From: Stackebrandtia nassauensis DSM 44728
Lineage (GTDB): Bacteria > Actinomycetota > Actinomycetes > Mycobacteriales > Micromonosporaceae
NCBI RefSeq assembly: GCF_000024545.1
Contig: NC_013947.1
Span: forward strand, 1,054,001 to 1,118,000
Direction of reading: 5' to 3'
DNA length: 64,000 nt
The translations under genes were made by a program, and so were the position numbers. Below, one piece after another: positions 37,973-44,941 of the stretch. Positions within the stretch are counted from its first letter, which is position 1. Every line of letters begins with the position of its first letter. The notes beneath the pieces are model-generated. The model was not told where the DNA came from, made no database searches, and saw only the letters and a list, made by a program, of their open reading frames with translations.

Positions 37973-38824
37973 ATGAGCCGTGCCGAAACCCTGGTCTCCG
38001 CCGACTGGGCCGAGCAGAATCTCAACACCGACAAGACCGTCTTCGTCGAGGTCGACGAGGACACCACCGCCTACGACAACTCGCACATTCCCGGTGCCGT
38101 CAAACTGGACTGGAAGACCGACCTGCAGGACCAGGTCCGACGCGACTTCGTCGACCGGCAGCAGTTCTCGGATCTGCTGTCGCAACGCGGCATCGCCAAC
38201 GACGACACCGTGATCCTCTACGGCGGCAACAACAACTGGTTCGCCGCCTACGCGTACTGGTACTTCAAGCTGTACGGCCACGACTCGGTCAAGCTTTTGG
38301 ACGGCGGCCGCAAGAAGTGGGAGCTGGACGCCCGTCCACTCAGCTCGGACCCGGTCAACCGTCCGGCCACCAGCTACGTGGCCGCCGAACAGGACCGCTC
38401 GATCCGGGCACTGCGCGACGACGTGCTGGGCGCCCTGGGCTCCTCCAACCTGGTCGACGTGCGTTCTCCCGACGAGTACGCGGGCCGACTGCTGGCCCCG
38501 GCGCACCTGCCGCAGGAGCAGTCGCAGCGCGCCGGACACATCCCGACGGCGCTGAGCGTGCCGTGGAGCAAGGCGGCCAATGAGGACGGAACGTTCAAGT
38601 CCGATAAGGAGCTTTCCGAACTGTATTCCGAGGCAGGAGTGGACTCCTCCAAACCGACCATAGCCTATTGCCGGATCGGCGAACGTTCCTCGCACACCTG
38701 GTTCGTGTTGCGGGAATTGTTGGGGCACAACGATGTTCGTAACTACGATGGTTCGTGGACAGAATACGGCTCGCTTGTGGGCGTGCCGATCGCTTTGGGC
38801 GACGAGCCCGGAAAGGCGCTGTAA
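37973..38824 (+). CDS. sseA: Thiosulfate/3-mercaptopyruvate sulfurtransferase (rhodanese)
   Basis: A 283-residue tandem-rhodanese enzyme that transfers sulfane sulfur to cyanide or thiol acceptors. The inactive N-terminal rhodanese domain spans about 6-125 (DNSHIPGAVKLDW). The catalytic C-terminal domain about 150-275 has Cys233 in YCRIGERSSH, which matches the actinobacterial CRIGERS active loop. ATG 37973 start. The following DUF1416 gene begins after 3 bp. The 326-bp upstream region carries the leader peptide, suggesting control by Cys supply. Confidence 0.95.
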   Translation: MSRAETLVSADWAEQNLNTDKTVFVEVDEDTTAYDNSHIPGAVKLDWKTDLQDQVRRDFVDRQQFSDLLSQRGIANDDTVILYGGNNNWFAAYAYWYFKLYGHDSVKLLDGGRKKWELDARPLSSDPVNRPATSYVAAEQDRSIRALRDDVLGALGSSNLVDVRSPDEYAGRLLAPAHLPQEQSQRAGHIPTALSVPWSKAANEDGTFKSDKELSELYSEAGVDSSKPTIAYCRIGERSSHTWFVLRELLGHNDVRNYDGSWTEYGSLVGVPIALGDEPGKAL

Positions 38825-38827
38825 GTC

Positions 38828-39166
38828 ATGGGGACCAACACGTCTAACACTCTGACCGCCGCTGGTTGCGGCGCACCCGACCAGTCCGCGGCACTGCCGG
38901 CCGCGATCAACCTCGAAACCGAGACCGTCATCACCGGAAGCGTCAAGTCCGCCACCGGTGACGCCGTCGAGGGCGCCTACGTGCGACTCCTGGACGGCGA
39001 CGGCGAGTTCACCGCCGAGGTCGTCACCGGCGACGGTGGCGCGTTCCGGTTCTTCGCCGCCGACGGCGAGTGGACGCTGCGCGCCCTCTCCCGCGAAGGG
39101 GACGGCGAGACGGCGGTACAGGCGAGCCGGGGCCTCAACGAGGTCACCGTTTCGGTCAAGCGCTGA
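38828..39166 (+). CDS. DUF1416 protein, partner of the sulfurtransferase
   Basis: A 112-residue protein with an N-terminal LTAAGCGAPDQSAALPAAINLETETVITG and a beta-rich carboxypeptidase-regulatory-like fold (AVEGAYVRLLDGDGEFTAEVVTGDGGAFRFFA). The family is almost always found directly after the sulfurtransferase in actinobacteria, as here with 3 bp spacing. The single Cys at residue 14 could be persulfidated (inference). A strong hairpin ends the unit. Confidence 0.93.
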   Translation: MGTNTSNTLTAAGCGAPDQSAALPAAINLETETVITGSVKSATGDAVEGAYVRLLDGDGEFTAEVVTGDGGAFRFFAADGEWTLRALSREGDGETAVQASRGLNEVTVSVKR

Positions 39167-40103: not shown

Positions 40104-41072
40104 CTAGCCGTCGTCGGAGTGCAGGGCCCGGTAGATGTCGTCGGCGCTCAACCCGCCCAGCGAATGGCCGGACTCGGTGACCGACACGAAACCGGTCTCG
40201 CCGTCCAAAAGCCGCGACAACGCCTCGCGCAGGTTCGCCGCCGACGTCACCGTCGGGTGCTCACCGGGTGGCAGTTCCCGCAGCTGTGCCTGGGCCAGGC
40301 CGGTCACCGACAGGCTCTTCACGCCCCGGTCGGCCCCGACGAACTCCGACACGAACGAGGTCTTGGGGCGGCGCAGGATCTCGGCGGGGGTGCCGTACTG
40401 CTCCAGCTTCGCCTCATTGGACAACACGGCGATCTTGTCGCCCAACCGGATCGCCTCGTCGACGTCGTGGGTGACGAACACGATGGTCTTGCCCACGTCG
40501 GCCTGCAACCGCAGGAACTCCTCCTGCAGCCGCCCCCGGGCGATCGGGTCGACGGCCGAGAACGGTTCGTCCATCAGCAGCACCACGGGGTCGGCGGCCA
40601 GTGCCCTGGCCACCCCGACGCGCTGCCGCTGCCCGCCCGACAACTGGTGCGGGTAGCGCTTGCCGTGGATGCCGACGTCGAGGCCGACCAGGTCCAGCAG
40701 CTCCTCCACCCGCTCGGTGGCCTTGTCGCGGTCCCAGCCCAGCAGCCTGGGCACGGTGGCCACATTGGCGGCGACGGTCTGGTGCGGGAAAAGTCCTATG
40801 TGCTGAATGCAGTAGCCGATGCGGCGCCTCAGCTCCACCGGGTCGGAGGACGTGACGTCCTCACCGTCCACGTAGATGGACCCCGAGGTGGGCTCGATGA
40901 GCCGGTTGATCATGCGAAGTACTGTGGATTTGCCGCATCCGGACGGTCCGACGAGTGCGACGAGTTCGCCCGCGGCGATGTCGAGACTCAGGTCGGCGAC
41001 CGCGGTTCCACCCCCGTCGTAGATTTTCTCGACACCGTCCAGCCTTATCGGCGCGGCGGTCGCGGAAGACAT
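40104..41072 (-). CDS. Glycine betaine/osmoprotectant ABC importer ATPase (OpuC/ProV type)
   Basis: A 322-residue ATPase with Walker A GPSGCGKST near residue 37, Q-loop, signature LSGGQRQRVGVARAL near 138, Walker B VVLLMDEPFSAVDP, and His in VTHDVDEA. The C-terminal ~75 residues resemble a single CBS-like regulatory domain (ETGFVSVTESGHSLGGL). ATG 41072 is chosen. Eight further in-frame codons upstream lack a start signal. Divergent from the two permease genes at 41139, with 66 bp between them holding both promoters. Confidence 0.93.
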   Translation of the reverse strand: MSSATAAPIRLDGVEKIYDGGGTAVADLSLDIAAGELVALVGPSGCGKSTVLRMINRLIEPTSGSIYVDGEDVTSSDPVELRRRIGYCIQHIGLFPHQTVAANVATVPRLLGWDRDKATERVEELLDLVGLDVGIHGKRYPHQLSGGQRQRVGVARALAADPVVLLMDEPFSAVDPIARGRLQEEFLRLQADVGKTIVFVTHDVDEAIRLGDKIAVLSNEAKLEQYGTPAEILRRPKTSFVSEFVGADRGVKSLSVTGLAQAQLRELPPGEHPTVTSAANLREALSRLLDGETGFVSVTESGHSLGGLSADDIYRALHSDDG

Positions 41073-41138
41073 AGGCCAGACCCTACAGGGAGCCACCGAC
41101 GTTGACCAGTCACGCGCGTTTCCCGGTACGGTGGGCGC

Positions 41139-41822
41139 GTGTCTTTGTCGATCGGCCTCGACGACCCACGCAACCCGTGGTTCTCCTGGTCATATATTGA
41201 GGACAATGCCGCGACGCTGGGCAGTGCCCTCCTGGAACATCTGGAACTGACCGTGGTGTCGGTCGTGGTGGCCGCCGTGATCTCGATCCCGTTGGGCATC
41301 CTGTCGGCCCGCTCCCGGCTGGCCGCCACGGTGATCCTGTCGGGTTCGGGTGTGCTGTACACGATCCCGTCGCTGGCGGTGTTCGCGCTGTTGGCCCCGT
41401 TTTTGGGGCAGTCGCTGATCACCGTCGAGGTGGGGCTGGTCATGTACGCGATGCTGATCATCGTGCGCGCCACGCTGACCGGGCTGCGGCAGGTGCCGCC
41501 CGACGTCATCGACGCCGCGGGCGGCATGGGTTACAGCCGGGTGCACCTGCTGACGCGGGTGGAGCTGCCGCTGGCGGTGCCCAGCATCATGACCGGGCTG
41601 CGCATCGCCACCGTGTCGACCGTGGCGATGGTGACCATCGGCGCGGTCGTGGGTCACGGTGGCCTCGGCGGCCTCATCCTCACCGGCTTCCGCAACAACC
41701 TCTACAAGCCGCAGATCCTCACCGCCACCATCCTGTGCATCGCGCTGGCGCTGGCCTTCGAGGTGCTGCTGTCCCTGGTGACCCGGCTGATGACGCCCTG
41801 GACGAGGGGACGGACGAGTTGA
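41139..41822 (+). CDS. Osmoprotectant ABC importer permease 1
   Basis: A 227-residue permease of the OpuCB/ProW class with about six helices and the EAA-type loop VIDAAGGMGYSRVHLLTRVELPLAVPSIM near 130-157. GTG 41139 start. Its stop overlaps the start of the next permease (TTGA). Forms the channel with permease 2 for betaine-like solutes. Confidence 0.93.
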   Translation: MSLSIGLDDPRNPWFSWSYIEDNAATLGSALLEHLELTVVSVVVAAVISIPLGILSARSRLAATVILSGSGVLYTIPSLAVFALLAPFLGQSLITVEVGLVMYAMLIIVRATLTGLRQVPPDVIDAAGGMGYSRVHLLTRVELPLAVPSIMTGLRIATVSTVAMVTIGAVVGHGGLGGLILTGFRNNLYKPQILTATILCIALALAFEVLLSLVTRLMTPWTRGRTS

Positions 41823-42529
41823 ACATCTTCTCCGAGGCGCTGACCTGGCTCAACGACCCGCTCAACTGGACCAACCCCGACGGGGTGTTCGCGCTGTTGG
41901 GCCAGCACCTGGCGCTGTCGGGCGCGGCGCTGTTGCTCGCGCTCGTCGTGGCCTGGCCGCTGGGGGTGTGGCTGGGGGCCACCGGACGCGGCGGCACCAT
42001 CACCGTCGTCGTGTCCAATGTGACGCGCGCGGTGCCCACTATGGCGCTGTTGAGTCTGCTTCCCTTGACGGCCCTGGGTTTCGGTCCACAGTCGGTGGTC
42101 CCGGCGCTGGCGTTGTTCGGGGTGCCGCCGCTGCTGGCCACCGCCTACACCGGCATGCGCGAGGTCGACCCCGACGCCCGCGACGCCGCCCACGGCATGG
42201 GCTTCTCACGATCCGGGATGCTGTTCAAGGTCGAGCTGCCGCTGGCGGTGCCGCAGCTGGCCAGTGGTTTTCGCACCGCGGCGGTGCAGATCGTGGCCAC
42301 CACGACGCTGGCGGCACTGTTCAACGGCGGCGGGCTCGGAGAGATCATCAGCCGGGGTTTCGGCTTGGGGCTGGCCAAGGGCGGCGGCGAGATCCTCGCC
42401 GGTGGCATCCTGGTGGCGGGCCTGGCGCTGATCGTCGAGGGCGTGCTGGCGGTGGGCGAGAAATACGTCACGCCGATCGCGCTTCGCGACCTCTCGCGCA
42501 CCAAGGCGAGGGTGTCAATGTCCGTCTGA
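41819..42529 (+). CDS. Osmoprotectant ABC importer permease 2
   Basis: A 236-residue permease paralogous to the preceding gene, coupled through TTG 41819 overlapping the previous TGA. The EAA-type loop ARDAAHGMGFSRSGMLFKVELPLAVPQL is near 120-148. The frame is open upstream, but only the coupled TTG gives the normal amphipathic N-terminus (NIFSEALTWLNDPLNW). The binding protein follows after 18 bp. Confidence 0.92.
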   Translation: MNIFSEALTWLNDPLNWTNPDGVFALLGQHLALSGAALLLALVVAWPLGVWLGATGRGGTITVVVSNVTRAVPTMALLSLLPLTALGFGPQSVVPALALFGVPPLLATAYTGMREVDPDARDAAHGMGFSRSGMLFKVELPLAVPQLASGFRTAAVQIVATTTLAALFNGGGLGEIISRGFGLGLAKGGGEILAGGILVAGLALIVEGVLAVGEKYVTPIALRDLSRTKARVSMSV

Positions 42530-42547: not shown

Positions 42548-43567
42548 ATGTCCCCCCACAAGATCACCAGAATCGTCGCTCTTCCCGCCGCGGTGGCCGT
42601 GCTGGCGCTCGGCCTGGCGGCCTGTGGTTCCCCGGGTTCCTCGGGCACCAAGGACGCCGACAAGGTGTCCGGCAAGGGCTGTGAACCCGTCGCCGGTGAC
42701 AGCCTGGTCGCCCTCGAAGACGACAAGAAACTGCAGGCCTCGGAGAACATCCTGGCCGCCTTCAACGACAAGGCCGCCGACGAGCAGGCCATCGCCGCCG
42801 TCAACGCGGTCTCGGCGAAGCTGACCACCGACGACCTCATCGAGCTGAACAAGTCCGTCGACGTCGACCGCAAGTCCGCGGCCAAGACCGCCAAGGCCTT
42901 CGCCGAGAAGAACAAGCTCACCAAGGGCCTCGACAAGGGCTCGGGCTCGCTGGTGGTCGGTCACGCCAACTACACCGAGTCCGAGATCGTCGCCAACCTG
43001 TACGCGATCGCGCTGGAGGGCGCCGGGTACACCACCGAGCTGAAGGACGTCGGCAACCGCGAGACCTACCTGCCCGCGCTGGAGGACAACGACTTCCAGG
43101 TCATCCCGGAGTACGCCGCCTCGCTGACCGAGACGCTCAACCCGGACCCCGACGCCGACTCGGCCAAGAACCCGATCGCCGACAACGACATCGACAAGAC
43201 CCTGGACACGCTGAAGCCCTTCGCCAAGGACGCCGGACTGGCGCTGAGCGAACCCGCCGAGGCGGCCTCGCAGAACGCCTACGTCGTGACCAAGGCCTTC
43301 GCCAAGGAGCACGGCGTCAAGACGCTGTCGGACTTCGCCGACAAGTGCAGCGGCAAGGCCTCGTCGCTGGCCGGTCCGCCCGAGTGCCCCAAGCGCCTCT
43401 ACTGCGAGGTGGGTCTCAAGGAGACCTACGGAATCCAGTTCGGAACCTTCAACTCACTGGACCTCGGCACCGGCACCAAGCAGTCGGTCGCCAGTGGAGA
43501 CTCCACCGTCGGTACTGTGACCACAACGGACAGTGCACTCGCGGATGGTGTGACCGTCAAGGGCTAG
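42548..43567 (+). CDS. Osmoprotectant-binding lipoprotein, apparently circularly permuted ProX/OpuCC family
   Basis: A 339-residue lipoprotein with signal and lipobox LAAC (Cys26), followed by a Gly/Ser linker. Normal members run from a first strand of the type VVGS-x-NFTE to a C-terminal LEDDK...LTTEDL..LN...VD segment. Here the order is swapped. Residues about 52-124 (VALEDDKKLQ, VSAKLTTDDLIELNKSVDVD) correspond to the usual C-terminus, then a short KGLDKGSG linker, then residues 135-335 begin with the usual N-terminus (SLVVGHANYTESEIVANLYA) and end at TVTTTDSALADGVTVKG, which normally precedes LEDDK. Both breaks lie at matching places, so the fold can be complete. It completes the transporter with 40104-42529. 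Confidence 0.9.
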   Translation: MSPHKITRIVALPAAVAVLALGLAACGSPGSSGTKDADKVSGKGCEPVAGDSLVALEDDKKLQASENILAAFNDKAADEQAIAAVNAVSAKLTTDDLIELNKSVDVDRKSAAKTAKAFAEKNKLTKGLDKGSGSLVVGHANYTESEIVANLYAIALEGAGYTTELKDVGNRETYLPALEDNDFQVIPEYAASLTETLNPDPDADSAKNPIADNDIDKTLDTLKPFAKDAGLALSEPAEAASQNAYVVTKAFAKEHGVKTLSDFADKCSGKASSLAGPPECPKRLYCEVGLKETYGIQFGTFNSLDLGTGTKQSVASGDSTVGTVTTTDSALADGVTVKG

Positions 43568-43759: not shown

Positions 43760-44941
43760 ATGAAGCTCAACAAGACGACGGGAGCCGCTCTCGCCATCGG
43801 CGTAGCGGCTGCCGCGGCAGCCTTGGTGGTCGGTGTATCCCCGGCACACGCCGACGCCAAGATCATCGGAGCCGACAGCAAGAACGCGGTCTCCGGTCAG
43901 TACATCGTCGCCTATGAAGACGGCGTCAAGATGTCCGACGGCAAGAGCATGGCGTCCGACGTCGGAGCCAAGGTCCGCAAGACCTTCGACTCCATCAACG
44001 CCGTTTCGGTCTCGGCTTCGGAAGAAGAGGCCAAGGAGCTCGCGGGTGACTCGGACGTGAAGTACGTCCAGGCCAACCTGAAGCACACGGTCTCGGGCAC
44101 CCAGGACAACCCCCCGTCCTGGGGACAGGACCGGGTCGACCAGGAAGCCGCCGAGGGCGACAGCAAGTACAACTACCCGGACTCGGCCGGTGAGGGCGTC
44201 ACGTCCTACACCATCGACACCGGTGTGGCCTACGACCACCCGGACTTCGAGGGTCGCACCGCCGAGGGCTTCGACGCCGTCGACGGCGACACCGACCCGG
44301 CTGACGGCCACGGTCACGGCACCCACGTGACCGGCACCATCGCGGGCACCGAGTTCGGTCTGGCCAAGAAGGCCACCATCGTCGGCGTCCGCGTCCTCGA
44401 CGACCAGGGCTCGGGCACCACCGAGCAGGTCGCCGGCGGCATCGACTGGGTGACCGAGAACCACGCCGAGAACTCCGTGGCCAACATGAGCCTCGGTGGT
44501 CCGGAGGACCAGGTCCTCGACGACGCCACCACCAAGTCCATTGAGTCTGGTGTCACCTACGCGGTGGCGGCGGGCAACGAATCCTCCGATGCCTGCGGCG
44601 TGTCCCCGGCTCGCGTGCCGGAGGCCATCACCGCTGGAGCCACGGACAACACCGACGCTCAGGCCGACTTCTCCAACTTCGGCAAGTGCGTTGACGTCTA
44701 CGCCCCCGGCGTGGACATCGTGTCCGCTGCTCCCGGCGGTGGTGAGGCGACCATGTCCGGCACCTCGATGGCGTCCCCGCACGTCGCGGGCGCCGCGGCG
44801 CTGTACGTGGGTGCCAACCCGGGTGCGGCTCCCGCCGATGTCGCCAAGGCGCTGACCGAGAACGCGCTGAAGGACGTCGTGCAGAACCCGGGCGAGGGTT
44901 CGCCGAACCTGCTGCTGAACACGCAGTTCCTGCAAGGATAA
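43760..44941 (+). CDS. Secreted subtilisin-like protease (proteinase K/aqualysin type)
   Basis: A 393-residue preproprotease: signal peptide 1-31 (VSPAHA-DAK), inhibitor I9 prodomain about 45-112 (SGQYIVAYEDGVKM, VKYVQANLKHTV), then the mature domain from about 117 with catalytic Asp in SYTIDTGVAYDHP, His in GHGHGTHVTGT, Asn in VAAGNESSDACG and Ser in SGTSMASPHVAGAAAL. Four Cys-poor features and the WGQDRVD start of the mature enzyme match extracellular proteinase K relatives. ATG 43760 follows AGGAACGGAG. Own promoter and tandem terminators make it monocistronic. Likely an extracellular nutrient-scavenging enzyme. Confidence 0.94.
   Translation: MKLNKTTGAALAIGVAAAAAALVVGVSPAHADAKIIGADSKNAVSGQYIVAYEDGVKMSDGKSMASDVGAKVRKTFDSINAVSVSASEEEAKELAGDSDVKYVQANLKHTVSGTQDNPPSWGQDRVDQEAAEGDSKYNYPDSAGEGVTSYTIDTGVAYDHPDFEGRTAEGFDAVDGDTDPADGHGHGTHVTGTIAGTEFGLAKKATIVGVRVLDDQGSGTTEQVAGGIDWVTENHAENSVANMSLGGPEDQVLDDATTKSIESGVTYAVAAGNESSDACGVSPARVPEAITAGATDNTDAQADFSNFGKCVDVYAPGVDIVSAAPGGGEATMSGTSMASPHVAGAAALYVGANPGAAPADVAKALTENALKDVVQNPGEGSPNLLLNTQFLQG

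Follow-up and report, generated by a model that had tools for sequence, protein, structure and literature searches.

The gene at 42548..43567 of the window (the whole stretch of 64,000 nucleotides that was analysed, from Stackebrandtia nassauensis DSM 44728) encodes a substrate-binding protein (SBP) whose segments appear in an unexpected order. A sequence-only reading had proposed that the segment which ends canonical ProX-type chains (C) comes first here, ahead of the segments with which those chains begin (N1 and N2). Is this protein a natural circular permutant, and is the rearranged form a conserved and functional one? The gene and its neighbours contain the following features.

40104..41096, minus strand: ABC ATPase subunit, divergent from the permeases
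41139..41822, plus strand: permease subunit (BPD_transp_1)
41735..42529, plus strand: second permease subunit (BPD_transp_1), open reading frame as listed; its true start is probably further downstream
42548..43567, plus strand: circularly permuted OpuAC/ProX-type substrate-binding lipoprotein, 339 amino acids, order C-N1-N2
42548..42625, plus strand: signal peptide and lipobox LAAC with lipid Cys26, read from the sequence
42680..42682, plus strand: Cys45, in the new N-terminal tail; invariant in the window type (invariant columns of the 47-row alignment)
42701..42922, plus strand: segment C (residues 52-125), the closing segment of canonical chains
42923..42946, plus strand: linker KGLDKGSG, where the former C and N termini are joined (best cut in the rotation scan)
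42947..43339, plus strand: segment N1 (residues 134-264), the opening segment of canonical chains
43346..43348, plus strand: Cys267, in lobe II; invariant in the window type
43355..43540, plus strand: segment N2 (residues 270-331), the rest of lobe II

The open reading frame, the lipobox with Cys26, the C-type segment, the linker and the N-type segments were all found where they had first been placed. Two details required correction: the moved segment does not lie right after the lipobox, since a 25-residue tail carrying Cys45 intervenes between the lipid Cys and segment C, and the chain does not stop at TTDSALADG, which is followed by VTVKG. A short end after N2 completes the 339-residue chain, and inspection of the sequence revealed no second C segment after residue 335. 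Segment C begins at hinge strand 2 (LVALEDDK), N1 would by homology run from lobe I (its first part) through hinge strand 1 into the start of lobe II, and N2 carries the motif ECPKRLYC (Cys280 and Cys286), a Cys pair common to canonical relatives.

With a signal peptide and lipobox in the product, and two permease genes and an ATPase gene nearby, the locus has the features of an ABC importer with an SBP lipoprotein. Its description as an otherwise normal betaine-type operon stood in part: the permease and SBP genes are co-directional, but the ATPase gene is divergent on the minus strand, and a betaine substrate found no support. By eye, a subtilisin-like secreted serine protease is encoded directly downstream of the SBP gene (43760-44941, plus strand), and a thiosulfate sulfurtransferase-like open reading frame followed by a small one lies at 37973-39166 (plus strand).

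Searches against solved structures with phmmer matched the window protein to EgtUC in swapped order, query residues 135-331 aligning with chain positions 9-196 and residues 55-125 with positions 203-275; Archaeoglobus ProX was likewise matched in two swapped stretches. Against Pfam OpuAC (PF04069) the protein scored 109.1 bits (gathering score 21.2), again in two stretches and with the C segment first rather than in the colinear full-length order of the family, while the OsmF equivalog model of NCBIfam (NF049931) gave 35.3 bits in two stretches, below its 400-bit threshold. The trimmed protein was also rotated, every second rotation being scored against canonical proteins. The score peaked at the KGLDKGSG linker: against canonical L054 the best cut was TKGLDKGS/GSLVVGHA (568, compared with 415 unrotated), and against canonical L050 it was KLTKGLDK/GSGSLVVG (549, compared with 437 unrotated). 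The canonical pair L054 and L050 scores 566 whether rotated or not, and the maximum in a shuffle control was 62 (20 shuffles, every twentieth rotation). Once un-rotated, the window protein is 48% identical to L054.

The same order is conserved in other genomes. Of 150 family genomes, 113 (rows counted) contain a full-length colinear match, and in one more a contig end truncates it; the homologues there are 45-66% identical. In the class, 17 of 394 genomes have the order (rows counted), a Cellulomonas massiliensis contig being a named carrier. Within its own genome (a single contig of 6,841,557 bases) the search at E <= 1 returned one further match only, at E 0.53 over residues 9-83 (75 residues). 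A pseudogene or an assembly artefact (a rearranged gene fragment), for which nothing but the odd segment order speaks, is refuted by this conservation, with colinear homologues in many family genomes and others in the class, a mostly preserved gene neighbourhood and a single-contig genome, and its probability is negligible.

Segment profiles assigned 127 distinct proteins to four arrangements: 64 canonical (N1-N2-C), 47 of the window type (C-N1-N2; the window's own family supplies 32), 14 N2-C-N1 and two N2b-C-N1-N2a. In this count identical segment sets were entered once, L002, L093 and L134 are absent from the row set, a weak extra N1 stretch in L098 was dropped, and the 14 N2-C-N1 proteins take in L139, which is fused to other domains, and L100 and L150, which are without the start of N2. 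A lipobox was recognised in all 47 window-type proteins, 56 of the 64 canonical ones, 7/14 N2-C-N1 and 2/2 N2b-C-N1-N2a proteins; the gene order permease-permease-SBP was present in the fetched flanks of 42, 58, 9 and 2 of them, respectively. The gap between C and N1 is 8-11 residues in the 47 window-type proteins.

We also searched viral contigs and plasmids. Query P0001 and profile A3 gave no match among the viral contigs, and the 47-row profile A2 gave one partial protein, L093, which, like the window type, stops after N2 and carries the lobe-II Cys. This IMG/VR contig begins inside the apparent window-type SBP gene (L093:1-423), and may be either bacterial DNA in the viral set or virus-carried. 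On plasmids, 282 records matched, none covering more than 80% of the query; among the best 40 of the 282, two (H1 and H2) have canonical order, H3 encodes an incomplete rotated protein and the remaining 37 match in the N1/N2 region only. A Mycobacterium ulcerans BS123 plasmid carries a partial rotated SBP (N2b-C-N1; L150:4917-5675) annotated as a glycine betaine binding protein, with no permease among the seven listed features of an incomplete gene table.

Could the front segment instead be an unrelated or independently acquired look-alike domain, added to a truncated SBP as an N-terminal extension, or could the gene be a mosaic of two paralogues? Segment C of the window sequence alone is matched weakly (i-E 0.031 with ProX, 1.2 with EgtUC), as an unrelated domain might be, and the window's best canonical matches vary along the chain (f21/f22 for N1, f40 for N2, and f40 then f33/f21/f22 for C), as in a mosaic. 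With the profile of 47 relatives, however, segment C becomes significant against ProX structure 1SW2 (residues 201-273 of 275, i-E 8.3e-6) next to the remainder (residues 3-195, i-E 1.4e-16), and un-rotation lifts the alignment score to that of a canonical pair. The two swapped stretches cover nearly the whole of solved ProX, which supports permutation; the look-alike and mosaic readings are very improbable. A natural circular permutation from N1-N2-C to C-N1-N2 is strongly supported by these sequence alignments and by its conservation in many genomes, and the window protein is very probably a conserved, functional permutant.

Structure prediction contributed little. AlphaFold2 models from 2 and 4 alignment rows were poor (pLDDT 41.0 and 46.6, the latter with pTM 0.42); fair confidence was confined to the region of the C-N1 unit, about residues 71-170 (mean pLDDT 59-86 in ten-residue blocks). 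Foldseek gave no match at E <= 0.001; its best matches were B. subtilis OpuAC structures, with E values from 1.8e-3 to 2.9e-2 and query-based TM-scores of 0.23-0.25.

The window type is not the only rotation in the phylum. In the phylum search with the 47-row profile some matches had model positions 267-331 upstream of 45-264, and with segment profiles both N2-C-N1 and N2b-C-N1-N2a were confirmed as additional arrangements. Among 396 genomes, N2-C-N1 occurs in at least 12, N2b-C-N1-N2a in at least two and the window type in at least two. Pfam is consistent with this: the best OpuAC stretch places residues 46-180 of L083 on profile positions 113-256, and residues 165-318 of L076 on positions 2-145. 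Among the rotated rows compared, un-rotation gives 36-71% identity with the nearest canonical relative: N2-C-N1 protein L075 is 71% identical to canonical L081, and window-type L036 is 58% identical to L054. Two loci, L134:1144-3045 (plus strand) and L139:571-2409 (minus strand), combine a rotated SBP domain with a peptidoglycan-binding domain and a polysaccharide deacetylase (PF01471, PF01522), and are possibly cell-wall enzymes with a ligand-binding part; segment profiles detect only C-N1 in L134, and the N2 match in L139 is weak.

Did these rotations arise once or repeatedly? Trees were built from 73 and 53 of the 127 distinct proteins, thinned by identity, the 53-row tree excluding the long or partial L139, L150, L151, L147 and L148. 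On this tree the arrangement requires at least six changes, and the starred branches alone force one for the window type, two for N2-C-N1 and one for N2b-C-N1-N2a. With all 23 rotated rows forced into a single clade, the tree was rejected in the AU test (p 8.4e-68); also rejected as one clade were the window type with N2-C-N1 (p 4.4e-113), the window type with N2b-C-N1-N2a (p 1.1e-6) and N2-C-N1 with N2b-C-N1-N2a (p 1.9e-9). A window-type clade including L049 was not rejected (p 0.417). For N2-C-N1, a clade with L096 was rejected (p 7.6e-6) and one without it was not (p 0.278), a group defined after inspection of the tree. Because one clade is rejected for all rotations and for any two types, at least three permutations are likely; three origins are well supported, and four are possible. 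A separate origin of L096 is possible, but is countered by an AS motif before the LGGPPEC-type strand, which L096 has in common with all eight of the remaining N2-C-N1 proteins whose front is complete.

Alternatively, all rotated forms might stem from one fusion of the native ends, followed by breakpoint shifts or by returns to canonical order. The C-linker-N1 join is indeed common to all rotated proteins, with gaps of 8-15 residues, and the AS motif occurs even in L096, which the tree sets apart. Against a single fusion, the nearest canonical relatives differ between rotation types and the AU tests reject each joint clade; repeated reversion would be compatible with those tests, but as a route to this pattern it is less likely. 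We consider a single fusion improbable, and separate permutations remain the preferred reading. No fused tandem intermediate was seen among the loci examined. Locus L176 (G756) has two adjacent canonical SBP genes on one strand, a tandem pair of the kind able to yield a permutant.

The rotations differ in where they break the fold. The available text of the EgtU report gives domain D1 of EgtUC as residues 233-331 plus 445-506 and D2 as 341-432, linked by two hinge strands of about 10 residues each (PMC9732360). We numbered EgtUC as chain position + 229, which places residues E375, R379 and Y443, named in that text (PMC9732360), on E, R and Y. In the alignment the chain of the window protein is opened near residues 425-432, where D2 ends, whereas the other two rotations break inside D2, at about 362-370 and 394-399 in the same rough numbering, with both strands kept. 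By alignment, then, only the window type appears to cut a strand of the two-stranded hinge; by homology, hinge strand 2 (LEDDK...) would form the new front of lobe I, with D2 attached via strand 1 alone. With the new ends at the boundary between lobe II and hinge strand 2, the two domains would keep a single connection out of two. The breaks had been called structurally sensible, which by homology they may be, but the loss of a connection had been overlooked.

Two cysteines accompany the cut hinge. Cys45 and Cys267 are both invariant in the 47 window-type rows, a tally that leans on kin, as loci of this type had been retrieved through their good match to the window protein or to its relatives' profile; both are nevertheless present in L049, which is 36% identical, and in the Cellulomonas protein. 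At the site between N1 and N2, scored for window-type and canonical proteins, a Cys occurs in 47/47 of the former and 0/64 of the latter. A tail Cys occurs in all 47 window-type proteins, in 4/64 canonical, 0/14 N2-C-N1 and 0/2 N2b-C-N1-N2a proteins, the tail being unread where no lipobox was recognised (3/64 canonical and 3/14 N2-C-N1). In 12 of the 13 canonical proteins listed, the ECPxRPFC pair holds the sole Cys residues besides the lipid Cys. Since this pair accounts for the other cysteines, Cys45 and Cys267 are left for each other and, by elimination and from their co-occurrence, a Cys45-Cys267 disulfide probably re-ties the cut hinge. The two residues might serve otherwise, in an interchain disulfide, a redox switch or metal binding, and no structure places them close together. 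Such a role is rather unlikely: within the set no arrangement other than the hinge-cutting rotation has both, and the canonical proteins listed, with that one exception, offer no other non-lipid Cys than the ECPxRPFC pair.

In the reading that we favour, the gene product would be a working, naturally permuted, lipid-anchored SBP of a PF04069 (cluster F) ABC importer. A canonical N1-N2-C ancestor was probably duplicated in tandem and then trimmed, so that the former ends became joined by a short Gly-rich linker and new ends arose where lobe II borders on the second hinge strand. In the resulting protein, C and most of N1 would form lobe I as one continuous stretch, and lobe II (the end of N1, and N2) would be the C-terminal part, the lobes being connected by one hinge strand, not two, and a disulfide from Cys45 in the tail to Cys267 in lobe II probably restoring the second tether. 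The lobes would close on the ligand as in canonical relatives, for delivery to the permeases. The same family would have been permuted at least twice more, elsewhere inside lobe II.

Which ligand is bound was approached through the aromatic cage of ProX, which we take to be Tyr63/111/190/214. At the four cage columns the window protein has Y, N, T and E, only Tyr189 being kept, and largely lacks the aromatic cage of a cluster F-III quaternary-amine (betaine, choline or ergothioneine) binder. Most relatives have Y in the first column, N in the second and D/E in the fourth, while the third column holds F in 46 of the 64 canonical proteins and in 36 of the 47 window-type ones; as canonical relatives have much the same pattern, permutation alone left the make-up of the pocket unchanged. 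The available text on EgtU lists its cage as F293, Y341, Y419 and Y443, and has R379 of EgtUC binding the ligand carboxylate (PMC9732360); the counterpart of R379 is kept as R283. There is a precedent in M. tuberculosis ProX. This protein, described as devoid of the conserved aromatics, bound polyphenols with dissociation constants of 20-70 uM and did not interact with betaine, choline or carnitine (PMC5894108). With one of four ProX cage positions kept and this precedent, betaine binding is not borne out, and the original label "osmolyte" is unsupported since the cage is largely missing.

Taken together, we tentatively propose that in Actinomycetota this family has undergone at least three permutations, and perhaps four or more, with differing break points and mostly within intact importer operons, and that the window lineage lost one of two hinge strands and evolved a tether-restoring disulfide, with possibly redox-sensitive closing. 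To judge from the alignments, the fold has apparently been rearranged circularly several times in nature, and the rotated protein probably still works. With three rotations in one phylum and un-rotated identities of 36-71%, the cost of moving the ends is directly testable, as are the requirement for two hinge strands and the evolution of compensating features. Permuted proteins appear as two matched stretches in family searches and are easily overlooked.

The window protein is homologous over nearly the full chain to canonical cluster F-III SBPs (Archaeoglobus ProX 1SW2, EgtUC, OpuBC/OpuCC and OsmF); it differs from them in its order, C-N1-N2 instead of N1-N2-C, and in mostly lacking the aromatic cage of the quaternary-amine binders. 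Canonical relatives in the phylum have the same permease-permease-SBP gene order as the window type. Profile A6 of the N2-C-N1 type matched 27 distinct solved sequences in two stretches each, engineered sensors included; none of these was rotated, as judged by the place of the best stretch. B. subtilis OpuAC (2B4L) is a likewise permuted glycine-betaine-binding protein, whose full order is presumably N2-C-N1; by that order its break lies inside lobe II, like that of the N2-C-N1 type, whereas the window break lies at the hinge. The C-N1 join profile A4 matched 2B4L in one colinear stretch (5-119 on chain positions 83-201) with a weak E of 0.029, and profile A6 did not match it. The available text of an earlier report describes circular permutation among glycine-betaine binders (2B4L, 1R9L and 1SW1 are shown), the permuted proteins compared sharing less than 24% identity (PMC2395249). 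In literature on permutation, binding proteins and betaine, the best-ranked titles and abstract openings do not describe the window's rotation. Permuted binding proteins are already known, in B. subtilis OpuAC and in TpMglB-2 (Tp0684) of Treponema pallidum, and the window's rotation appears to be a new form. TpMglB-2 is, in the available part of its description, a permuted ABC-importer lipoprotein ("Type Ic / Cluster Bc") that retains ligand binding and conformational change (PMC4990184). It is a type I/cluster B sugar binder whose permutation, as given there, adds a fourth hinge cross-over; the window type, unlike TpMglB-2, would by alignment lose a hinge connection rather than gain one.
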